From: a virus
DNA length: 64,000 nucleotides
Virus record (IMG/VR): IMGVR_UViG_3300033148_004740
Span: 62,001 to 126,000 of that record
Direction: 5' to 3' (one strand)
The position numbers and the translations under genes were made by a program. This document shows positions 7,123-62,399 of this stretch, one piece after another. Each line of letters begins with the position of its first letter. The stretch's first letter is position 1. The notes under the pieces were generated by a model. That model was not told where the DNA came from. It did not search any database and saw nothing but the letters and a program-made list of their open reading frames with translations.

Positions 7123-10100
7123 TTATTCGTAGTATCCACTGATGAGATACTCGTTTGGATTGATATATGTTACCTGGTCTATTTCTGATGCTACAGTGAT
7201 CCCTGCTGATTTCAAGCGGAAGCCAAGTGGAATGTCACCAGGAGCCGCAGTTAACTCAATATGATCTAACCCAAGTGTTACTGAGTCTGCCTTATGGGTA
7301 CGCCTAAACCAATTGATATAAGACTCTCCCACAAAATCATAGCCTGATACTGTCAAGGTTGTATTAGTAAGACGAGCTCCATTTGAGAAACGGACTTCGT
7401 CATAAAGACCCAAGGGGGTTCCAATCGAATCAGTAGGATAACCAGCAAATATCCCTGAATCGGCACCATCGGCAATGGCGGCAGGACCACTAGTTAGCTC
7501 AACCCCTGAAGCTACCTCAATACCATCTATATGTATACCATATGAGAGGATTCCGCTAACAGAGGCACCATAATAAGCAGGATCTATCTCGTCGAAGAGC
7601 CAAACCAATTTGTAGTGATGCCAGTCAAGTAACTCATCTCTAGAAGAGAAGAGATCATCAAGCTTGACTCCAATCCAACCAATGTCATCATCTGATAGCT
7701 GCAGAACACAGCGCAAATAAGAGTCTCCAGTAGATGTCCATTTCCAGAAACCAAACAAAATTGTGTTGGAATAACTCAGATTTCCCCAAGTATAGAGCAG
7801 CAACATGTCTGTCTTATCAGTATCTCCAACATAGAGCACGTTAGACTTGTAATTGAATTCAAAAGTTCCTTCTGCTCCTTGGTTTTCTGCTGCTGTCATA
7901 AGCCCTGAGGCTTGGAAGCATTGACCACTTGCCTGAACGTCATATGCTCCCTGAGACAGACCACTCGAAGTGGGGACTGCATCAATGTTTATCAGATTTA
8001 GTCCGTTACCAGACGAATCATTGGTATTCCCATCAAAGTGCCAGAGACCAATTGTTTCAATATCTTCTCCACTAGTAGAAGTATAGGGAAGATACGATGC
8101 AATCATGTCTCCTGATCTCTCTTCAAGATAAGAACTATACCAGTCAGACTGAGTTGCTAAGATCTCTGTATCTATTACGTCATCAATGTCTCTGATCCTA
8201 GCTAAGACTCCACTAACAACATCGTCAATAGCAGAAACGTATTTGGTGCCGTTAGCTTCCTCGGTAATCAAGATGTTCAGGTCAATAGTATTAGAGTAAA
8301 TGCGTCGACCCGAGCGCTGGTTAACGACATATGCTCGAGCAGATGTACTTCCCTCAACAGCGACAAAGTATGACTTGGTCAAGTTGATGCCAGGCTCTTC
8401 AAGAGCAGTGTCTGGAGTAAAAACTAAACTATAGACAGGGTCTTCATCTGAGCCTGTGTTGCTGATACTGTCTGAATATCTAGGACCAAGAGCAACACCA
8501 GTAAATGTTCCAGTACGAGGATCTATGATATCTTCTCCACTTACCGTAACCAGGGTTTTCTTACCTGTAGATATATCACCGACAGAGTAGGTCTCTGGTG
8601 TACCAAGCCCATGCATCTCTCGAAAGAGAATTTCATAGTCGATATCAGCCTGGCCGCTTACTGGCAAGTCGTTATCGTTCAAGTAGTCTGTGTAGTATGT
8701 CTCCAATCTGGCTTCTGGGATACCAAGGATCTTATCATCCTGCCATACCTTATAGACCCATACTCCACTAACACTAGTGGGCTCAGAAATACCACTCACT
8801 GAAACAGTTGCAGAAACGCCAGGATCAATGACAACATCTGTTGTGAACGTACCAATATCTTCAACAGTTGATGGGGGACTATAGAGAGCAAAAGCTTTAC
8901 CGCTTGCCCCCGTTGCTGAGCTGATTGAAGTCTCTGTCCCAAAGGTTCCAAGGATAGGAGCTTGTAGATCAAAGGTAACAGTCTGTCCCTCGAGTGCTTC
9001 GCCTGCTGAGTTCTTCACCGTAGCTACTAGACGACCGATATTGTTCCCAACATTGATCTGGTATGGACTTCCAGTCGGGAGCTCTGCGGTCAAAACGATA
9101 GAAGCTACTTCTGATTCAGCAGTCTGTACTTGAACGAACCCCTTGCTAAGAGCAGAAAGAGGATTCAGGTCTGCGTTAGAATCATTGATCCACTCCCCGG
9201 CAAAATTAGGTTCATAGAACACAGACTGGCCTGCCCAGTAGTGGACGACAATACGGTCACCTGCAGGAGGGACGAGACTGACGTCTCCGAAGGCCAGGAC
9301 ACCACGTTCATTATCTATCCATACTTCTTGGCCACTTGAGGTGAACTCATCTAGACCAGAGATACTAGTCCATTCAGTCAACATATCCGCATCGGAGTAA
9401 GACCAAACAGTAACCGTAGTATCCTCTGGGACAGGAGAGTAGACCAAATGAAACTGTTGTTCTACATCCCCTGATGAGATACCAACTAGCTCAAGACCAG
9501 AGACCTCGGTTACAGTAGGGGTTCCACCAGCTACACTACCAATCTCGTCGGTCCAGTCGTTGTTCAACCATACGCGTGGAGGAGAGAAGTTTGTGGCATC
9601 TACCTTGAACTCAGGAGAGTCAGAGGTTGTAAGCTCGAGTCTCTTGCGGAAGTCGAGATCTGCATAGTGCTTGTTCTCAACCTTGTTGTATCTAAAGCGC
9701 CTAACCTGAATTGGGTATGTAGGCTTAGGGTCAAACTGCAGGTCAATGAACTGCAGACCACTTACCGTACTGTCCCTCAAGAAATCATGTGACTGATACT
9801 CATCACTGAAGAGGTACCACTCATCCTCATAGTTGTAGAAGTACCCGCTATGGACCCTGGGGACCCAAGCACGCCAGTCGGATACGTACACAGGGAGTAT
9901 TGTTGCTTGTGCTAAATCATCATTGTCTCCGTATCCCGACTGCCAAAGGTTGTCAGAGATACCTGAAGTAGTTGGATCCCAAAGGGTGGAAATTGTGGCA
10001 GAGGCCTGGAACTCCCTGTCGGTAGGCCAAGTACGCCTGTCCCACTGCCACCCTTGTATCTTCTTGTTCGACCCTGGGTGCTCTTCGCTGACATAGATAG

Positions 10101-12633: not shown

Positions 12634-13857
12634 TTAGATAACCACCCTAAACAAGATAGGTGTTGCTCCCGCATACTGATTTTCTACAAGTAGCTTTTCA
12701 TCGGCCTCAGGCAAGAAGTCAGTCAGAAGAGTATTCCGCACCTTGTTATCCTCGAGGCTCGAGGGCCTATGAATGAACACTTTGTCAAATGGTTTAGTAG
12801 TGGTCCCTACGTTCTTGATAAGATCGGAGGTAGAGAGAACGCGCTCTATCATCTCGTTGAAGATAAGCTGTTCTCCAATGTCTAGATTGTCGATATAGGT
12901 AGAAACATTGGTAGTCACTGAAGAGACGATCGATGCCTGTTCATCAGAGGTTGCGCGGTGCTTCAGAGTGAGGTCCCCAATCATTGAAACACCTATCTCT
13001 CTAGGACCTCGAACAGAAGACACGTTCCCATATCCTTGATTTTTCCAGACAGCCTGCCATACAGCCTGTTCTAGAGAAGCAGAGACCGAAGGAACCGTGG
13101 CCTTGATGAGAACATCAAAGCTTCCAATGCCATGGAAGTATGGAATGAGAGATACGTCTGCTACACCTGGCACTGCCAGGGCTGTGAGGCGGATAGAGGT
13201 TTGGTTGGCTCTCTCAGCAGCGATGACCTGATTAGACAAGCGGAAGCGATAGTTAGTATCACCCTCGATCTCCCTCCCTACGTTGATCTCCCCTTCGTTG
13301 TTAACCTTCAGAGAGTTGTTCAATGAATCCGTGTAGTCAGTAAAATCATGATGAATAAGCTGACCCGCACCTACGTTAGCAGCAGCCCCAGGCCTGATGG
13401 CCTCTACTGCTACAAAGCTCTCGGACTGGTCAGAGGGGAGCAGTGTCTGAAATGGAATCCGATAGGTGATACCTGAGCCAGCACTACCTGTGCTAACCAC
13501 TCTTCCTGCAGGAAGAATAATAGAGCTACTCGAGTTAATGGTCCCAAAGGTCCCAAGATCTACATAGAAGCGGACTAGACGGTCAGCTGCAGAGATAGAA
13601 GATGTGGTCTCTCCATGCCGAGGAAGACCAAGCATCTGGCCGATGAAATCTAGATACTTTGCGTTAGCACCGTCGATGAAACCAAGAGCAATGTTCTGAT
13701 CAAAAGTCTTCCACTGACGACCTAGCTTCTTGCTGAGTGCCTGGACAAGTGCACGAGTCTTACTACCTGGAGAGGTTCTTGTGATGTTCGTATTGTTAAC
13801 AACATCGAAGAGCAAGTCTCCAAATATCTTGCTCTCTGACTCAGCGAAAATAGGCAT
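12634..13857 (-). CDS. Baseplate J-like protein
   Basis: A 407-residue protein with the features of the baseplate J/T4 gp6 family. It has a helical N-terminus, a central beta domain with the usual ILPAGRVVSTG and FVAVEAIRPGAAANVGAG segments, then NYRFRLSNQ, PGVADVSLIPYF and a helical end containing LDIGEQLIFNEMI. These proteins form the wedge ring around the hub of contractile tails. It follows the gp25-like gene, the standard order. A GAG-rich ribosome site precedes the ATG at 12 bases from the previous stop. Confidence 0.88.
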   Translation of the reverse strand: MPIFAESESKIFGDLLFDVVNNTNITRTSPGSKTRALVQALSKKLGRQWKTFDQNIALGFIDGANAKYLDFIGQMLGLPRHGETTSSISAADRLVRFYVDLGTFGTINSSSSIILPAGRVVSTGSAGSGITYRIPFQTLLPSDQSESFVAVEAIRPGAAANVGAGQLIHHDFTDYTDSLNNSLKVNNEGEINVGREIEGDTNYRFRLSNQVIAAERANQTSIRLTALAVPGVADVSLIPYFHGIGSFDVLIKATVPSVSASLEQAVWQAVWKNQGYGNVSSVRGPREIGVSMIGDLTLKHRATSDEQASIVSSVTTNVSTYIDNLDIGEQLIFNEMIERVLSTSDLIKNVGTTTKPFDKVFIHRPSSLEDNKVRNTLLTDFLPEADEKLLVENQYAGATPILFRVVI

Positions 13858-13869
13858 CAGTCAAACTCC

Positions 13870-14340
13870 TTAAGCAAAGTCGAATTCAGTCTGGCCCCAT
13901 GGAAGAACAAAGAGGCCCTGCTCAGTGCTATCAAATATGGTGGATACAACAATAGGATCTGATATGTCCAGCTGGTTATTAGTTGTTGCGATAGCCAGTA
14001 TCGAGATCGCAATCATAACCTTATATACACCAACTGGAATCACCCGAACACTCACGTCTTCAGAAAGCACTATACCAGCTGCTATGAGCGCTGTCTTCAC
14101 TCTGTCCTGAATTAGTTGACCCATTTCACGGGTGTTGGGTTCCCCAAGGAAGTCTGACAGGTTCGCCCCAATAGTAGGTTCACGCTCCCAGTCTAACAGT
14201 TCTGACCTAACAATGTTTGCAACCTCGTTGCGGATCGACTGGAGATAGTCATAGGAGGTGTCCCGAATGTCGCCATCGTCATCGATAGCATAGTCTCCGT
14301 CCCATGTGAATTCCAGATCAATACTGTCATAGTCACTCAT
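13870..14340 (-). CDS. gp25-like baseplate wedge protein
   Basis: A 156-residue protein of the T4 gp25/phage W family. Residues 1-50 contain DLEFTWDGDYAIDDDGDI and then the helix LQSIRNEVANIVRSELLDWE. The hallmark segment GANLSDFLGEPNTREMG and a helix-strand C-terminus follow. In T4 and type VI-like systems this protein links wedge to sheath. It has no lysozyme active site, in keeping with the modern view of the family. Its position before baseplate J is the canonical order. Confidence 0.88.
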   Translation of the reverse strand: MSDYDSIDLEFTWDGDYAIDDDGDIRDTSYDYLQSIRNEVANIVRSELLDWEREPTIGANLSDFLGEPNTREMGQLIQDRVKTALIAAGIVLSEDVSVRVIPVGVYKVMIAISILAIATTNNQLDISDPIVVSTIFDSTEQGLFVLPWGQTEFDFA

Positions 14341-30641: not shown

Positions 30642-31445
30642 TTATAGCAAATCCCTTGCGATAAAGGAATAGGCCTCCTGGATTGGGAGGCCATCAATAG
30701 CCACTTGTTTTGATTGACCAAGAATATAAACGTCTTCTAGCTTCTGGACAGTGTGGTGGATATTATCATCCCCCACATAGTCTCCAAAAGCGACATAGAT
30801 GTCAAAAGGATTCAACGCTGGATCGTCAACATGTCGACCCATCCCTGTGTCAACAGTAATGGATCCTATATTTTCCTTCTTTGGTGCGCCCCAGACTCTG
30901 TTCTCGAACATCTCAAAAGCATTCTCTGCTCTACCTACTTTCCCAGCGGCACGTTGAGAGCTAGAGAAGCCCGTTAAAGAAGCATGGGCAGCTAGCTCTT
31001 GTAGCTGATCGACAGGGAGCCCGAGATTACCATTAATGACTTTTTCAATATTTGCCGTAACTGTCTCTTCTCCAATATACTTTCCCTTGTCTGATTTCAC
31101 AGCAGAGAAGGGAGTAAACTCGCCCTTTACTAGAGCCTTATAGCGTTGTAGGACAAGCCACAAATAGCCAGCCTCTTTGAAGTTGATAGTGAACTGGCCC
31201 TGTACAATTACGTTCCCCTCCGCCACGGCGTCAAATAGACGAGAGGCATATCCATAGAGAGGAGTACGAGACTGAGTGACAGCATAAGACATACTAGTGA
31301 CCTCATCTATAAGTACATCGCCAATATAGATAGCCACCTGTGCGCCCGAGAAGTAATCATTGTTGTAGATACCCCTTCGGTCTAAGGTAGCCCCATGAGT
31401 ATCCCAAAAGGATTTCTCTGATTCGCCCTGAGGATCAATAGCCAT
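30642..31445 (-). CDS. Tail-tube-fold protein, third paralogue
   Basis: A 267-residue protein with the same opening and closing elements as its two upstream neighbours: FSGAQVAIYIGDVLIDEVTSMSYAV (partly), TPLYGYASRLFDAVAEG, a middle QGQFTINF and a final EAYSFIARDLL. Between them sits an insertion of about 80 residues (100-190) containing helices. Its start overlaps the previous stop by one base. It may be a tube initiator or terminator, or a second tube protein. The fold relation is visible in the sequence, but the exact role is not. Confidence 0.68.
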   Translation of the reverse strand: MAIDPQGESEKSFWDTHGATLDRRGIYNNDYFSGAQVAIYIGDVLIDEVTSMSYAVTQSRTPLYGYASRLFDAVAEGNVIVQGQFTINFKEAGYLWLVLQRYKALVKGEFTPFSAVKSDKGKYIGEETVTANIEKVINGNLGLPVDQLQELAAHASLTGFSSSQRAAGKVGRAENAFEMFENRVWGAPKKENIGSITVDTGMGRHVDDPALNPFDIYVAFGDYVGDDNIHHTVQKLEDVYILGQSKQVAIDGLPIQEAYSFIARDLL

Positions 31446-32650
31446 TAGAGCCTTCTCCCTGAGCGCCTAAGCCCCATACTCTCCAGGTATCTAACATATC
31501 TTCTTCCACCTGCTACAAGAAGCTCGGACGCAGTCCTTTCTCTTCCTTTACTCCAAATACCTCTATCATTCTGAGAGAGCTTCATTCTGCCTACAGAGGT
31601 CATGATGTCTACATCTCGAGCGACAAAGTTAATCACCTGTTCTGTCAGTAGATCTTCTACGGACATAGTAACTCCATCATTCATGAACTCAACACCATAG
31701 ATCCCCATACGGGAAATGGAACCATATTCATTAGCGAAGAGAACGGTAAGATCCATTGGAGGAAGTTGATCAGGAATGAGAGTTGAGACTTCAGTATCTG
31801 CTCCCATTTCTCCTGCAGTCCTGGCGTCTCCCATCGCACGAATCAAGGGAGCAAGGGCATGCTCATTGAAGAGAGTGAAGATCATCGAACCACCAATAGT
31901 CCTAGGTCCACGGGTATATCCCTTTACATAGCCTTGGCCCAGAGCCCTTACCCCCATCTTCTCACGGTGGCTCTGGACACTGATAGTCTGTAGGGTAGCC
32001 AAAGTAAGAGTATTGGTAGCTGCATCATCCATCTCTTTGATGTGATCAATGCGGCGCTGTAGGCCATCCTTGATGAACTGATGTTCTGCCTTCATAGCAA
32101 AGGCTACACGAATCATTCTCTCGTACCCAGCTGCAGAAAAGCCGTGTCTGTTGAATATTCCGAGGACGATAGGAACAGCAAGATCCTTAGCTGGACTGTC
32201 TGTCCCGTCTGCGGCACCTCTTATATATAGACCAGCAACTGTGAGAAAGTGTCGCTTGAGATCCTCATAGCTAGAACGGATGACGGCGTCAACATCCAGC
32301 GGATTCATGTTGTTGATGATATTCTCACAAGCAGCTACAACCTCTACTGAGGTATCGACCTCTTCCTTGAGAGCCGCGATCTGTACGTCCTTGTCCACTC
32401 TGCCGTACAAATGGGCCACAACCTTGATGTCGCTTCCAGAAAAGCTACTACCAACCCACTTGATCTCACTATGTTTGTCTTGTTCGACAGGAAGATTATC
32501 CTTTTCTCTATGATATTCCTGTCGGATTAAGGCAGGGAAAGAGTCTTCTTGAAGGAGGACTTCACCGGGTTGGAACTGTTGCGCCTCGACGGCAGCAAGA
32601 TCAGGAGGGCCAGAGTCTGATTTAACATTGATTGGTCGATCGCCTGGCAT
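31445..32650 (-). CDS. Tail-tube-fold protein with large helical insertion
   Basis: A 401-residue protein sharing FSGSDIKVVAHLYG, MIFTLFNEHALAPLI, QLPPMDLTVLFANEYGS and INFVARDVDIM with the 230-aa tube-like protein next to it. Between the first strand pair and the rest (residues about 85-215) lies a mainly helical insertion that the neighbour lacks. The N-terminal 55 residues are acidic and Pro-rich. AAGGAG stands seven bases before the ATG. It is probably a specialised tube ring or a protein adding an external or internal domain to the tube. The insertion's function is unknown. Confidence 0.7.
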   Translation of the reverse strand: MPGDRPINVKSDSGPPDLAAVEAQQFQPGEVLLQEDSFPALIRQEYHREKDNLPVEQDKHSEIKWVGSSFSGSDIKVVAHLYGRVDKDVQIAALKEEVDTSVEVVAACENIINNMNPLDVDAVIRSSYEDLKRHFLTVAGLYIRGAADGTDSPAKDLAVPIVLGIFNRHGFSAAGYERMIRVAFAMKAEHQFIKDGLQRRIDHIKEMDDAATNTLTLATLQTISVQSHREKMGVRALGQGYVKGYTRGPRTIGGSMIFTLFNEHALAPLIRAMGDARTAGEMGADTEVSTLIPDQLPPMDLTVLFANEYGSISRMGIYGVEFMNDGVTMSVEDLLTEQVINFVARDVDIMTSVGRMKLSQNDRGIWSKGRERTASELLVAGGRRYVRYLESMGLRRSGRRL

Positions 32651-32667
32651 CAGAACTCCTTGTGAGA

Positions 32668-32689
32668 AGCACCGGGATTAACCGATGCT
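32668..32689 (-). promoter_or_regulatory. Small hairpin between tube-like genes
   Basis: In the minus-strand transcript AGCAUCGG pairs with CCGGUGCU (one G-U pair) around a six-base loop, in the 55-base gap between the tube gene and its 401-aa paralogue. There is no U run. It may be a weak RNA processing or stability element. Confidence 0.35.
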
Positions 32690-32705
32690 CCTCTGTATCT
32701 TAGAA

Positions 32706-33398
32706 TTATGTATATAGTTGACTAGTTAGACCAGGAAGCTCAACCTTCTGCCAAGGTACGAGTGTCCTAGCGATATAAGTGTTCTGCATCTCAGACGTAA
32801 TGTCGTCAATCGAAACACCATATCCCTCATTGAGTAGCTCAACACCGAAGATCCTCATGACAGCAAAGCTGCCGTACTCGTTAGCCGCTGCTAGTGTGAT
32901 ATCAAACGGAGGAATTTGATCTGAGAACCATGGAGCCATGGCAACCTGATCAGATCCAACATTAGTGATATCCGACTCGATATTAAAATCTGGATCGTCA
33001 AAGTCTACTGCCACATTAGGGTCAGAGACTTGAGCAATCGGTAGAGTCGTCACCGAAGCGTCATTGGTATTCTGAGGAATGAAGTCATCCTTATCGGCCA
33101 AAAACTTCGGAGCAGTTCCTGCACCATGTTTTCGATCAGCGATCATTCCAAAGAGACCAAGTAGAGCATGTTCATCGAACATGAGGAAAATTAGGGTACC
33201 AGCAATGCCACGTTTACCGCGCGAGAAGGATCTAGGATCCGCTGATCCCATAGTATACAGAGGGGCTTTCTCTCTCGTAACCGAGTACGAGATAGCCTGA
33301 ATCTCTGCAATAACCTTGCTCCCGAAAACAGCCTTAATGTCTACGCCGGAAAAACTGTGGTAGCTCTTTCCAAATTGATTATCTGCTGTGTTGGCCAT
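32706..33398 (-). CDS. Tail tube protein
   Basis: A 230-residue protein immediately after the sheath gene, the standard place for the contractile-tail tube subunit. It has the tube-like arrangement: FSGVDIKAVFGSKVIAEIQAI (partly), YSVTREKAPLYTMG, an RGIAGTLIFLMF strand, QIPPFDITLAAANEYGS and an end with NTYIARTLVPW. Of the three tandem paralogues this one is shortest and has no large insertion, so it is the best candidate for the repeating tube subunit. Confidence 0.75.
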   Translation of the reverse strand: MANTADNQFGKSYHSFSGVDIKAVFGSKVIAEIQAISYSVTREKAPLYTMGSADPRSFSRGKRGIAGTLIFLMFDEHALLGLFGMIADRKHGAGTAPKFLADKDDFIPQNTNDASVTTLPIAQVSDPNVAVDFDDPDFNIESDITNVGSDQVAMAPWFSDQIPPFDITLAAANEYGSFAVMRIFGVELLNEGYGVSIDDITSEMQNTYIARTLVPWQKVELPGLTSQLYT

Positions 33399-37679: not shown

Positions 37680-40600
37680 TTAGCTAGCGGCGGCTGTACA
37701 GTCCAAATAATGAACAGTAATACGAACTGCTCCATCGTCAAAACCAGGATCCCCACCGATGGCAGTTAAACGAACCTCGTCTCCAGCCGCAAAATTTTGA
37801 ATCGTCGAATTAGTCCAATCTGTATTGTCACTAGTTGTCCCAAGTGCCCCTGAGATTTCACTACCCCAATCTTCGTTACCAAAACCAGTAAGTGGAGCTA
37901 TGCTATAACTATCTGCTCCTTCAATTGAGCTTGTTACACGAGTAGAAACTGCCACCACAACCGCGCCAGCTGGAATAAAAATGCCCGTAGTGGTGTCACT
38001 TGCACCATCCAAGCTACTCAAGACAGTACTAACAGATTTGATATTCAGAGTTTGGCTGTTAGATAAATCATTAGAAATTTCTATATCACCATCACCAAGA
38101 ACAGCCATACGTGTATTGTCTCCATGTGTCTGCAACAAGATACTCCCTGTACTAGAGCTCCCAGCGTCTGCTTCTCCAGTTCTAATAGAGACATCACCAG
38201 TCTCTCCAACTGTATCGCTGTTTCCAGTCCATAGACGAAGTTCTCCACTATCATAATCACCTGCATTTTCAGAGTCCCCAGTCCTAATAGTTATCATTCC
38301 ACTACTATATGCAGGAGATACATCATTTGTGCGGAGATCTAACGTGCCACGACCTGCGTTATAAAAATCAACATTCGAATCACTATAGAGTCTAAGGGCG
38401 GTTGAGGTGAAATAGGTAATAGGACCAATAGAAATTTTATTGCTGGCACCAAGTGCTAAGTCTAAACCGTCCCAGGTCAAGTTACTGTCACCGCTAACAG
38501 TATTTGAATCAGAAAAAACAGCTATCTCATTTTGTGCTGGAGTTTCAGCAGCATCGATAGCCACGCTAGTTTCCCATGCACATGTGCCGTCGCCCACGGC
38601 AGTCAATAGGTAACCATCAGCAATAGCAGTTGCTGCTAAATCATCGGCCTCAATCTCGTCTGCTCCACCATCATGATGTCGTGAGCCATGGGCAGATACA
38701 TCTACACCGTCAACATTTCCAGTGACTGTAATTGCTCCAGTAATGGCCAATGTCGACCCGTCCCATGTAAAATTCGTATCACCTTCAATGCTGTCGCTAC
38801 CGGTGAATACTGCAATACGGTCGTCTTCGCCATCCGTTGCATCAACGCCAGTCCCGCTGAGACCGGATGCAGTCAGGTCAATCTCGGCACCATCATGAGG
38901 CTTGTAGTACAAGGCGCCGTCAGTCTTGGCATAGAGAGCTCCATACCCGGCAGTGATACCGGTCGCTTCCGTAGCAAGTTCTTCCAGCTCAAGGAACCCG
39001 GTCGGAGTGATAGCCAGCCGTGTATTGGTGCCATGGGTTTGGAAGTAGATTCCACCCGCGTCAGCCACACCTACAACAGCAGCACCGGTCCTTAATGTGA
39101 TATCTCCTGTATTGCCGTCAGTGTCAGTTGTCGCACCTGTTACAAGGGTGATAGCCCCACTGGCATAGTCGCCCGCATTGGTCTGATCCCCCGTGTAGAA
39201 GTCGAGGGAACCAGAATCTATGGCAGTAGAGGCATCAGCAGTGAAGAACTCAGTATCTCCACCGATATAGTAATTGTTCATTCGGCCAAGGGAGGCATAA
39301 AGAGACAGCCGATTCGCAGCAAAGTACGCACTGTCTATGCTTGTCGCCCAGGAGTTGGCTTTTACGTTGCCGAGGGCTCCGCCGGCATCCTGAAACGTAA
39401 GGAACGATGACCCAACAAGCAGGCGAAACGAGTACGTCCCTGCAGCGTTCCAGATCTTGAGCGCCCCATCGGCAGGCGCTGACAACCTCGTCAAGCCACC
39501 TAGCTGGACGGTACTATCGCTCGCATCGATGCGGAGCTGCTCGACTGTACCATGAGTCTGGAAGATAATGTCTCCCGCATCGGCAGCACCAACAACAGCA
39601 ACACCCGTTTTTAGAATAATGCTTCCCGAATCACCGATGGTATTTGTCGTCGCACCCGTCTCGAGAGTAATCGAACCGCTATCGTAGTTGCCCACGTTGG
39701 TTTGATCACCGGTCCATAAGTGCAAAGAGCCACTATCACCAGTGAAAGAATGGTTGGACGAATAGATGTTGAGGCCCCAGTAGGTATGGCTTTGGTAAAT
39801 TGAAGCATTCATCGCAGCAGAGAACTTCACTGCCGCGTCGCTTATATATGCAGTTGAGCCACAATAAAAAGCTGACCCCTGTACGGAAGCCGTATACCCA
39901 TCCTCGTCTAGAACAATAAGTCGAGCATTTGTGGTTGAGGTATCAAGCCTGATGCCCTGGCCACTGGCTGCATTGTTGATGATAAGATCACCGTCGGCAG
40001 GAGCCGTGAGTCTCGTCGTTCCTGCGAGCTGGATCCCGGACGTGGTTAGAGTGACGCCGTCCCAAGTGAAAGTAGAGTCGCCCTCGATTGTATCCCCATC
40101 CGTAAAAACAGCGATTTGATTATCAGCAGGTGAGCCAGAAGTATCTACGCCACCAGCAGCTTGTACGTCAAGGTCTACCCAATCGACTCCATCATGTCCC
40201 TGGAAGTTAGATCCATCCCACTGAATATCACCAGCTGTCGTTGAAGACGTAGAACCAACTCGGATACCGTTGGCGAACTGAACATCTTGGTTGAAATCGA
40301 TCCGCATTGCTTCAAACAATCCAGTCGTGTTACCGGTACTAAACACCAGATCGGCGGACACCGAGTCCACAGCAGAACCGTTCTGGATGCACCTAATTCT
40401 AGCACCCTCATCCCAATTCGGCCCAGATGATCGAACACCTCGGAAATTGATTGATGCAAGAATATCTTCGTCAGCGGTAGCCGTGAGGGTTCCAACACTA
40501 GTTCCCCTGGAACGACGAAGGTCCAATGCACTGTAATCATTTGCTCCAGTACCATAAGCACTGACTCTCGTAGCACAGGTACTCACATTAGCAACCTCAA

Positions 40601-41804
40601 GCTTGCCTCCAGGCGAAGCAGTACCAATACCAATACCAACATTGCCCTCATAATCAAGCACCATATAATCTTGAAGATCTGAACCATCATTGGTGCGAAA
40701 GACTAGCTTGCCCTGGTCGTCTGCCCCGTTACGCTGTCCCTCAACTGTAGCAATAGTATTGCCACCGGAACCATCTTTGAGAGTAAAGCTAATTGCGACA
40801 CCAAAACCATCCACCATCACAGCATCAGTTTCGTGCACGATGTTGAGCGGCGACCTAGCAGTATTTGTGTAAGAGGCAGCATACTCCAATCGGCAAGAAG
40901 TCGAAGAATCACGGACAGTAAGCCGATTCCCTAAAGTTTCAGTGCCAATACCAACGCGCTGGCTGGAGTCGATCCGCATGGCCTCTACGAACATAGAGCC
41001 GCTGTCAGTCTCAAAGATCAGTGCACCCTGGCCGTCTGCCCCATCCCGTATACCAGCGATAGCAGCAATTGACTGGACAGCTCCGGGGTCCTTGATCGAA
41101 AACACAACACCGGCACCGAAGCCATCCACCATGTTTCCGTCAGTAACATGACGGACACTGAGTACAGACCGGTACACACTTGTGAGACTGGAAGAAAACT
41201 CAGCCAAAATTGGCCAATTTGCTGAAGCCGCGTTGTTAACGTATAGCTGATTGCTGTCCCAAGTCAGATTTGCATCACCTTCAAGGGTTCCATTACCAGT
41301 CCATACGGCAACCTGGTCATCAACTGGCGTATCTACCTTGGTAACAGCAATCAAGATGTGAGAATCTATCTGAGTATGGGTATTAGAACCAACATTTTGG
41401 ATACTTAGATGGCTGATATCAGTAGTCAGATTATGTGTGTTAGTAATTAAGGCGTGATCAATATCGGTCGTTAGATTATGTGTATTGAGGATACTGTTGT
41501 GATCAATAGATGCTTCTGTAAAGTGAATATCAGTATCAGCAGCATGAGAAGTATAGTTAGAGCTAAGAGTAGAGACATCTACTCCATCTACATTACCGAC
41601 ATTGGTGACAGCGCTGGCCCCCATATCTAGGTCACCAGTCATTGCTCGAGAGCCAGTCACCAGCAAGTACTGAGTATGGTCGTCATCTAGAAGACCATCT
41701 AGTTCGCCATGGTTAGTGACAATCCCACTAACAGTGGTTCCTCCGCCGCTGGTCACGCCGAGAATATCATGTATTCTCTTATGTTCCACAATAGGGTTAG
41801 GCAC
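37680..41804 (-). CDS. Long fibre-like protein with internal repeats
   Basis: A 1374-residue protein starting at GTG 41804, preceded by AGGAG with nine-base spacing and directly after the previous stop. The N-terminus (HKRIHDILG, then HGELDGLLDDDHTQYLL) is of a type common in phage fibres. Four copies of about 34 residues share (I/V)AV(F/W)T-G-x-(S/T)-(I/L)-E-G-D-x-(N/T)-(F/L)-T-W-D (residues 154-187, 552-587, 986-1020, 1082-1117). Three longer repeats (692-760, 865-935, 1160-1238) end with QTHG. His/Asn-rich THNLTTDI copies occur at 108-130. No chaperone or peptidase domain is evident at the C-terminus. It is probably a trimeric head or tail fibre. Confidence 0.75.
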   Translation of the reverse strand: MPNPIVEHKRIHDILGVTSGGGTTVSGIVTNHGELDGLLDDDHTQYLLVTGSRAMTGDLDMGASAVTNVGNVDGVDVSTLSSNYTSHAADTDIHFTEASIDHNSILNTHNLTTDIDHALITNTHNLTTDISHLSIQNVGSNTHTQIDSHILIAVTKVDTPVDDQVAVWTGNGTLEGDANLTWDSNQLYVNNAASANWPILAEFSSSLTSVYRSVLSVRHVTDGNMVDGFGAGVVFSIKDPGAVQSIAAIAGIRDGADGQGALIFETDSGSMFVEAMRIDSSQRVGIGTETLGNRLTVRDSSTSCRLEYAASYTNTARSPLNIVHETDAVMVDGFGVAISFTLKDGSGGNTIATVEGQRNGADDQGKLVFRTNDGSDLQDYMVLDYEGNVGIGIGTASPGGKLEVANVSTCATRVSAYGTGANDYSALDLRRSRGTSVGTLTATADEDILASINFRGVRSSGPNWDEGARIRCIQNGSAVDSVSADLVFSTGNTTGLFEAMRIDFNQDVQFANGIRVGSTSSTTAGDIQWDGSNFQGHDGVDWVDLDVQAAGGVDTSGSPADNQIAVFTDGDTIEGDSTFTWDGVTLTTSGIQLAGTTRLTAPADGDLIINNAASGQGIRLDTSTTNARLIVLDEDGYTASVQGSAFYCGSTAYISDAAVKFSAAMNASIYQSHTYWGLNIYSSNHSFTGDSGSLHLWTGDQTNVGNYDSGSITLETGATTNTIGDSGSIILKTGVAVVGAADAGDIIFQTHGTVEQLRIDASDSTVQLGGLTRLSAPADGALKIWNAAGTYSFRLLVGSSFLTFQDAGGALGNVKANSWATSIDSAYFAANRLSLYASLGRMNNYYIGGDTEFFTADASTAIDSGSLDFYTGDQTNAGDYASGAITLVTGATTDTDGNTGDITLRTGAAVVGVADAGGIYFQTHGTNTRLAITPTGFLELEELATEATGITAGYGALYAKTDGALYYKPHDGAEIDLTASGLSGTGVDATDGEDDRIAVFTGSDSIEGDTNFTWDGSTLAITGAITVTGNVDGVDVSAHGSRHHDGGADEIEADDLAATAIADGYLLTAVGDGTCAWETSVAIDAAETPAQNEIAVFSDSNTVSGDSNLTWDGLDLALGASNKISIGPITYFTSTALRLYSDSNVDFYNAGRGTLDLRTNDVSPAYSSGMITIRTGDSENAGDYDSGELRLWTGNSDTVGETGDVSIRTGEADAGSSSTGSILLQTHGDNTRMAVLGDGDIEISNDLSNSQTLNIKSVSTVLSSLDGASDTTTGIFIPAGAVVVAVSTRVTSSIEGADSYSIAPLTGFGNEDWGSEISGALGTTSDNTDWTNSTIQNFAAGDEVRLTAIGGDPGFDDGAVRITVHYLDCTAAAS
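38091..39731 (-). repeat. Three ~70-aa beta repeats in the long fibre-like gene
   Basis: Copies at 39525-39731, 39000-39212 and 38091-38327 encode a TGD-x(n)-G-x-Y-x-SG block, then a (L/V)-x-TG block and a closing (F/L)-QTHG, then a beta strand. They resemble repeats of trimeric fibre shafts. Confidence 0.7.
38454..41345 (-). repeat. Four ~34-aa repeats in the long fibre-like gene
   Basis: Copies at 41244-41345, 40044-40151, 38745-38849 and 38454-38561 encode the shared pattern D-x-(I/V)-A-V-(F/W)-x-x-x-x-(T/S)-(L/I/V)-x-G-D-x-x-(F/L)-T-W-D. The spacing between copies varies, as expected for a modular shaft. Confidence 0.75.
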
Positions 41805-61991: not shown

Positions 61992-62399
61992 TTATAGGCC
62001 CATCGCCGTAAAGGCATTGATCCCTTCGTTGGTTACTATTCTCCTACCTGAGCGGAAGTTCCCTCGTGCATGTGAGAACATAGAGCGGCCAGCAAGACCA
62101 GCACTTCTTCCGACGCCAAGACCTCGAGCTCGTGAGTGAGCAAAACGTCTAGCTCCAAAGCCTCCATAATATCCTACACCTGCTCCCATAGCTGCGCCGC
62201 CAAGAACACTCGTGTCACTAGACATCATACCCCATCCAGCTCCTGCTCCTGCTCCGATAATAGCTCGCCTACCATGGGGACTAGCCCAAGCACCGCGTGC
62301 TGCATTATTCAAATAGCCACCTCGAGCCACAGAGGCGCTTGCTCGTCCCCAAAGACGATCAGCACCGGCTCGTCCAGCTGCCCAAGCTCCTCCAATCAT
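61992..62399 (-). CDS. Gly/Ala-rich glycine-zipper-like protein 3
   Basis: A 135-residue protein. I choose ATG 62399, since AGGAGG lies five bases before it. A GTG at 62402, three bases earlier, would leave only two bases. The sequence is Gly/Ala/Arg-rich with GxxxG-like runs (IIGAGAGAGWGMM, GGAAMGAGVGYYGGFGARR), and ends with RRIVTNEGINAFTAMGL. It is the third of three similar proteins upstream of terminase. They may form membrane-inserting pores or line the virion interior. That is inference from composition. Confidence 0.68.
   Translation of the reverse strand: MIGGAWAAGRAGADRLWGRASASVARGGYLNNAARGAWASPHGRRAIIGAGAGAGWGMMSSDTSVLGGAAMGAGVGYYGGFGARRFAHSRARGLGVGRSAGLAGRSMFSHARGNFRSGRRIVTNEGINAFTAMGL

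Follow-up and report, generated by a model that had tools for sequence, protein, structure and literature searches.

A cassette of three tail-tube-fold paralogues in large phages, with a fast-diverging helical insert in the second copy

Three tube-fold paralogues next to the sheath gene

The stretch of DNA analysed here, referred to as the window, comprises 64,000 nucleotides (positions 62001–126000) of the 126,472-base virus record IMGVR_UViG_3300033148_004740; another IMG/VR record, IMGVR_UViG_3300033153_006701, codes for identical proteins. On the minus strand of the window the tail sheath gene is followed by three adjacent genes, called here copies 1, 2, and 3, coding for proteins of 230, 401, and 267 amino acids (aa), respectively. 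The whole block comprises, in minus-strand order, genes for 193- and 239-aa proteins, the sheath, copies 1–3, two chaperone-like genes, three long tail genes (1300, 1433, and 1975 aa), two small genes, a gp25-like gene at 13870–14340, and a gpJ-like gene at 12634–13857. The tail encoded by this block is contractile.

All three products match PHROG 9206, and their paralogy, claimed in an earlier note made from the sequence, was confirmed by profile–profile comparison of the orthologue groups: hhalign gave a probability of 100 (E = 3.7e-49) for copies 1 and 2, 98.5 (E = 2e-15) for copies 1 and 3, and 97.9 (E = 4.8e-13) for copies 2 and 3, a similarity far beyond chance. The short motifs listed in that note proved right in part. 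The FSG opening is present in all three copies and NEYGS in two of them, copies 1 and 2; the PPxD(I/L) strand occurs in copies 1 and 2, while copy 3 has NPFDI instead, and the end motif (N/S)-x-(I/V)-A-R-D/T describes NFVARD of copy 2 and SFIARD of copy 3 but not TYIART of copy 1, which does not begin with N or S. In a tree computed jointly from 73 core sequences (73 of 75 rows, two intein-bearing ones being left out), copies 2 and 3 each occupy one side of a branch with a support of 99, and the duplications therefore appear to predate the spread of the group. Copy 1 does not form one clean side of the tree (2 changes).

No Pfam domain was found in the three copies of the window. Sequence-profile searches of the PDB with the copy-2 and copy-3 alignments returned nothing at E up to 1, and a comparison of folds was therefore needed. 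AlphaFold2 models were built from 103 sequences for copy 2 and from 79 for copy 3, the alignments leaving out copy-2 proteins longer than 450 aa, L187, and 27 of the 106 listed copy-3 relatives. The mean predicted local distance difference test (pLDDT) value is 73.4 for copy 2 (128 residues at 90 or above; the core exceeds 90) and 78.1 for copy 3 (104 residues at 90 or above). Among solved structures the best match of both models is the phiCD508 tube, with a VIA Z of 10.3 and 3.4 Å over 128 residues for copy 2 (the matches at this Z include the phiCD508 and R4C tail tubes) and a VIA Z of 10.5 and 2.7 Å over 123 residues for copy 3, and the match lists of both are dominated by tail tubes, tubes of extracellular contractile injection systems, and Hcp. 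Since both models hold the tube barrel, the objection foreseen in the earlier note, namely that the 401- or the 267-aa protein might lack it, falls away. For copy 1, profile homology to copy 2 predicts the same fold. The matches are to tubes in general and do not discriminate between tube and initiator proteins; the T4 gp48 and gp54 chains were not singled out. No fourth tube-like gene was detected in the window with the group profiles, nor any further one in the whole 126-kb record in a search with copy 1.

Conservation of the cassette and divergence of the copy 2 insert

Relatives were collected by scanning viral and genome contigs for conserved patterns, of which the best 80 of 486 and the best 80 of 161 confirmed relatives were used, together with three named phages, so that the sample leans towards the window. 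Open reading frames (ORFs) were called in 214 loci, reduced to 137 by removing those sharing a 70-aa protein tail. The order sheath–copy 1–copy 2–copy 3–chaperones is found in 114 of the 137 distinct loci, three of which were dropped as cut by the locus end, leaving 111 complete triples; these include L201, in which copy 3 is represented by its N-terminal half, and L155, for which copy 3 is probably split and only one of its ORFs was counted. Among the other loci, three have a split copy 3, one a doubled copy 1 (L205), and one extra fragments (L176); six show copies 1–2 and one copies 2–3 near the locus end, and 11 have copy 1 alone, six of them at the locus end and five not. L217 was added later and stands outside the 137. 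The cassette is kept lineage-wide across diverse large phages.

The five lone copy-1-like stretches away from locus ends (L206, L207, L211, L212, and L213) lie on acidobacterial contigs without tail neighbours and are apparently decayed; several of them share a conserved upstream stretch. The tandem pair of copy-1 genes in L205 (5755–9665) is found on a contig of an Acholeplasmataceae metagenome-assembled genome, and copy 3 of this locus carries an N-terminal staphylococcal-nuclease-like domain (PF00565, 2.4e-10). In L109, L127, and L156 (ca. 8430–9490) copy 3 consists of two ORFs, while L159 of the same group has a single 349-aa ORF; the two-ORF form may reflect a split gene, a frameshift, or an assembly error.

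Over the 111 loci copy 1 varies in size from 179 to 265 aa (coefficient of variation, CV, 0.07), copy 2 reaches 780 aa (CV 0.34, two of the largest owing their length to inteins), and copy 3 reaches 505 aa (CV 0.23). The narrow range of copy 1 leaves little room for domain fusions. In the window copies 2 and 3 are enlarged at different places, as the earlier note had proposed. The ca. 130 extra helical residues it ascribed to the 401-aa protein are seen between the FSGxDI and TIS blocks, which are 146 aa apart versus 13 in copy 1, i.e., ca. 133 extra residues modelled as helical. DSSP assigns helices to residues 87–115, 120–125, 128–138, 154–169, and 173–206, flanked by the strands 75–81 and 213–235; in the model the two long helices (87–115 and 173–206) and the small ones form a helical hairpin continuing the β1–β2 hairpin. 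Copy 2 additionally has an N-terminal extension of 68 aa and a C-terminal tail of 56 aa, the latter weakly similar to the tails of L007, L012, and L011. The different insertion of the 267-aa protein corresponds to a β3–β4 loop of 122 aa with helices inside, versus 88 aa in copy 1 and 35 aa in copy 2 (Table 1).

Table 1. Tube-fold cassette, its enlarged parts, and assigned neighbours in the window
Feature	Position	Strand	Proposed assignment	Basis
Copy 1, 230 aa	32706..33398	-	putative major tail tube protein	PHROG 9206, 3.9e-44
Copy 2, 401 aa	31445..32650	-	putative specialist ring protein, tube initiator type	PHROG 9206, 2.9e-29
Copy 2 N-terminal extension, residues 1–67	32450..32650	-		low-confidence model; block alignment
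Copy 2 helical insert, β1–β2 turn, residues 82–212	32015..32407	-		DSSP on model
Copy 2 C-terminal tail, residues 356–401	31448..31585	-		model; block alignment
Copy 3, 267 aa	30642..31445	-	putative second specialist ring protein, hub-linker type	PHROG 9206, 3e-10
Copy 3 enlarged β3–β4 loop, residues 91–212	30810..31175	-		model; block alignment
Tail sheath, 634 aa	33409..35313	-	tail sheath	PHROG 16991 tail sheath, 3.3e-78
Chaperone-like gene, 155 aa	30171..30638	-	tail assembly chaperone-like	position and two-gene arrangement; PHROG 29362, 1e-5, function unassigned
Second chaperone-like gene, 308 aa	29245..30171	-	chaperone-like	synteny
Hub-type protein, 1975 aa	15108..21035	-	hub-type, M23 peptidase	Pfam PF01551, 4e-10

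Across the 111 loci the FSGxDI-to-TIS spacing is 13 aa in 110 cases for copy 1 and 12–19 aa in all rows except one for copy 3, while in copy 2 it ranges from 17 to 507 aa, exceeding 60 aa in 36 loci and not exceeding 20 aa in 26. The β2–β3 hairpin is 21, 21, and 20 aa long in copies 1, 2, and 3, respectively, at both the 10th and the 90th percentiles. The largest β1–β2 insert is that of L030 (507 aa), because the longer copy 2 proteins of L007 (780 aa) and L186 (638 aa) hold inteins; giant inserts in these two were considered and rejected. The inteins are of the LAGLIDADG type (L007 7715–10057, L186 3909–5825) and lie inside the conserved RGxRTIAGS motif of copy 2 at sites ca. two residues apart; the sizes of copy 1 suggest no intein there.

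The insert of the window matches no other ORF of the window. BLAST sorts the 36 inserts longer than 60 aa into 22 groups, 17 of them singletons. Helix-forming residues are more frequent in the copy 2 inserts than in copy 1. In the six nearest loci (L007, L012, L002, L011, L014, and L013) the copy 2 core is 63–71% identical to that of the window, and the insert 21–28% identical versus 17–21% for shuffled sequences; over 422 pairs the mean identity is 54% for the core, 22% for the insert, and 20% for the shuffled insert, alignments within the insert region being unreliable. For the eight remaining genes of the block, identity with the relatives tested is 29–71%. The copy 2 insert diverges between phages faster than the neighbouring genes. 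In seven close pairs the proportion of nonsynonymous differences (pN) is 0.29–0.52 in the insert versus 0.09–0.28 in the core, i.e., 1.8 to 4.3 times the core value, and it is lower than that of synonymous differences (pS) in 7/7 pairs. Positive selection on the insert is not supported by these values, the tests being of low power because the synonymous sites are saturated; the insert is weakly constrained. On the copy-1 tree the presence of an insert longer than 60 aa requires 7 changes, and since only 3 of them are forced by the starred branches, the number of independent gains is uncertain.

Cell-wall-related or surface domains are fused to the minor copies in two loci. Copy 2 of L201 terminates in a pair of PG_binding_1 domains and also matches endolysin-like PHROGs; copy 3 of this locus bears PG_binding_1 together with SH3. 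In L217 PG_binding_1 is found on copy 2 and Cu_amine_oxidN1 on copy 3. In both loci (L201 6944–8377, L217 8162–9799) copy 3 is split over two genes with half a tube barrel each. The second half was recognised in the next ORF with E = 1.1e-17 (L217) and 4.1e-9 (L201), by a profile built without L201 with six sequences searched, and is preceded by PG_binding_1 (L201) or two LysM domains (L217). According to Pfam, LysM is absent from the three copies of the window and present twice in the C-terminal half of L217 copy 3. Cell-wall domains were seen on copies 2 and 3 only, copy 1 having been scanned individually for the window protein alone.

Probable roles of the three copies

We consider it probable that copy 1 builds the tube and that copies 2 and 3 are dedicated rings of the baseplate end, the initiator and the hub linker. 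Copy 1 would be the major tail tube protein, stacked as many hexameric rings within the sheath, and copies 2 and 3, ancient duplicates of it, would each contribute one ring at the baseplate end, acting as the tube initiator and the linker to the hub; either of them may abut the tube and the other the hub. The β2–β3 hairpin would be the stacking element, and because its length is equal in all three copies, they would be able to stack on one another. At the opposite end of the fold, the β1–β2 turn keeps its length in copy 1, while in copy 2 it is opened up and accommodates the helical hairpin domain, which most likely extends outward to the baseplate wedges or the hub. The profiles, models, and tree set the tube-fold domain of copies 2 and 3 apart from that of the major tube protein, and in the record of Acinetobacter phage vB_AbaM_ME3 the 0305phi8-36 relatives of copies 1 and 2 are called "major structural protein" and "virion structural protein", respectively. 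The placement at the cell-facing end is suggested by the cell-wall binders, seen on copies 2 and 3 but not on copy 1, and by agreement with the precedents AlgoCIS Alg5/Alg7, Mu gp43, P1 Tub/PmgG, and T4 gp48/gp54. The T4 genes for gp48 and gp54 lie away from gp19.

The T4 tail contains 138 copies of the tube protein gp19 versus six each of gp48 and gp54, proteins of the baseplate–tube junction (PMC3004832). In P1, BplB, Tub, and PmgG are described as the tube, the tube initiator, and a tube-linking ring, all of the tube fold, PmgG bridging the six-fold tube to the three-fold hub; P1 differs in that the accessible part of the report describes no recognisable tandem paralogue cassette (PMC12810830). 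Of Alg5 and Alg7, the AlgoCIS counterparts, Alg7 is described as a tube-fold initiator with LysM, and Mu gp43 as one comprising a tube-like domain, an eight-helix domain, and LysM (PMC11915804, PMC8894135). TPP1–3 of the Vandenendeviridae phage Adele are reported as three neighbouring tube genes that fall into three clades and are regarded there as functionally specialised; like the copies of the window, they are said to differ in the loop after the first β strand, but their 159–174-aa products have near-identical models and the available text describes no large insert (PMC12846349). With such sets in T4, P1, AlgoCIS, and Vandenendeviridae, dedicated initiator or terminator rings cannot be called unusual, as the earlier note had done.

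Bacillus phage vB_BauM_KLEB27-3 has three adjacent genes after the sheath, gp026–028, orthologous to copies 1–3 (41% identity for gp026 and copy 1) and all annotated as tail tube proteins, but of 191, 181, and 240 aa and without the large insert in copy 2. ME3 shares with the window the sheath, three tube genes (gp30–32), a chaperone, and a long tail protein, and differs in that the copies have diverged to 25–29% identity. Judging from the ME3 notes and accession order, gp140–142 of Bacillus phage 0305phi8-36 would correspond to copies 1–3; gp142, which would occupy the copy-3 position by gene order, is described as a virion protein that has gained an insertion domain, "f" (Hardies 2007, PMC2147016). 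Campylobacter phage IBB_35 is reported to have three gp19 genes (PMC3322345). Phage G has two tube candidates, gp179 and gp180, between the sheath and the chaperones, whose roles were declared unclear (PMC8570332); kinship of these with copies 1–3 was rejected (hhalign probability below 2), and they represent a separate duplication.

Several points weigh against the roles proposed. The genes for initiators of the Mu type follow the tape measure gene rather than preceding it. The insert is not needed for the core job, since 26/111 loci have no more than 20 aa at its site. The wall-binding domains are limited to two loci (L201 and L217), both distant from the window, and Pfam found no domain in the 103 aligned copy 2 proteins. 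Finally, copy 3 of L066, L073, L075, L080, and L084 bears N-terminal carboxypeptidase-regulatory-like (Ig-like) domains, which fit the collar and the baseplate equally.

The same Ig-like domains could be collar decorations if one specialist served each end of the tail, as a baseplate initiator and a head-proximal tube terminator ring, an arrangement in keeping with two specialist paralogues and two tail ends. We regard it as improbable: in L201 and L217 the wall-binding or surface modules are carried by both copies 2 and 3, and the usual neck or terminator place upstream of the sheath is occupied in the window by the genes for the 193- and 239-aa proteins, which match head or virion PHROGs. 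Of the two arrangements raised in the earlier note, we favour dedicated specialist rings, while a tube in which the three copies alternate as rings or form heterohexamers is very unlikely. Copy 2 resembles copy 1 closely in sequence and has a β2–β3 hairpin of equal length, and a heterohexamer of Hcp2 and Hcp3 from a type VI secretion system is known (PDB 9vne), but inserts and fusions of up to ca. 500 aa in copies 2 and 3 should not fit between the tube and the sheath and would be expected to clash with the sheath or the lumen, while copy 1 is held at 179–265 aa. A non-structural role of one copy, as an assembly factor or a decoy for tube-sensing defence systems, is the least likely of all; DSR2 is indeed described as recognising a tail tube protein, but the relatives of copies 1 and 2 in ME3 and 0305phi8-36 are recorded as structural, and gp142 was called a virion protein.

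A different question is whether the insert of copy 2 has a specific partner. It could be a tolerant spacer drifting fast without one, which is compatible with copy 2 being a baseplate-end ring; the raised pN with pN still below pS and no sign of positive selection, the near-chance identity, and the loci in which the insert is absent or short are consistent with it. Yet the insert always occurs at the same turn and is enriched in helix-forming residues in comparison with copy 1, and the selection tests are weak owing to saturation, so that we find the spacer possible but doubtful. With similar reserve we suggest that the minor rings may serve as a display platform, a fixed turn of copy 2 and a fixed loop of copy 3 receiving interchangeable modules that change quickly (helical hairpins, peptidoglycan-binding, LysM, Ig-like, and nuclease domains) and would adapt the tube tip to the envelopes of the hosts without altering the tube, and that the split copy 3 of L201 and L217 could form a heteromeric ring of split barrels.

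Specialist tube rings are known from other systems; the present cassette differs in the fast-changing helical insert of one copy. Searches of the open-access literature returned no cassette conserved over a lineage whose helical insert is hypervariable at a single turn, nor wall domains on both minor tube copies, a split barrel, or an intein within a tube-fold gene, an absence of little weight. The copy 2 inserts, which share one turn and range in length from 17 to 507 aa, constitute a natural series for probing the contacts of the initiator ring, and the cassette bears on the question posed for phage G, i.e., why certain myophages possess multiple tube proteins.

Annotation and neighbouring genes

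The description of PHROG 9206 as "major head protein" is probably a misannotation of tail-tube-fold proteins, and the analysis offers probable roles for genes so labelled in this PHROG and in several phage records. The same label recurs in the records of Moorella phage MTATph1 and ME3. KLEB27-3 (L004 4883–8927) and MTATph1 (L005 4967–8919) have two "tail sheath" genes each, with another gene between them, while the window has one.

The position of the 155-aa chaperone-like gene matches that of ME3 gp033, annotated as a putative tail chaperonin. Besides its peptidase domain, the 1975-aa hub-type protein matches PHROG 20474 (endolysin, 2.2e-68) and PHROG 4930 (baseplate hub, 2.6e-4). Upstream of the sheath, among the genes in the neck position, lies a gene whose 1374-aa product contains fibre-like motifs in repeated form (window 37680–41804).

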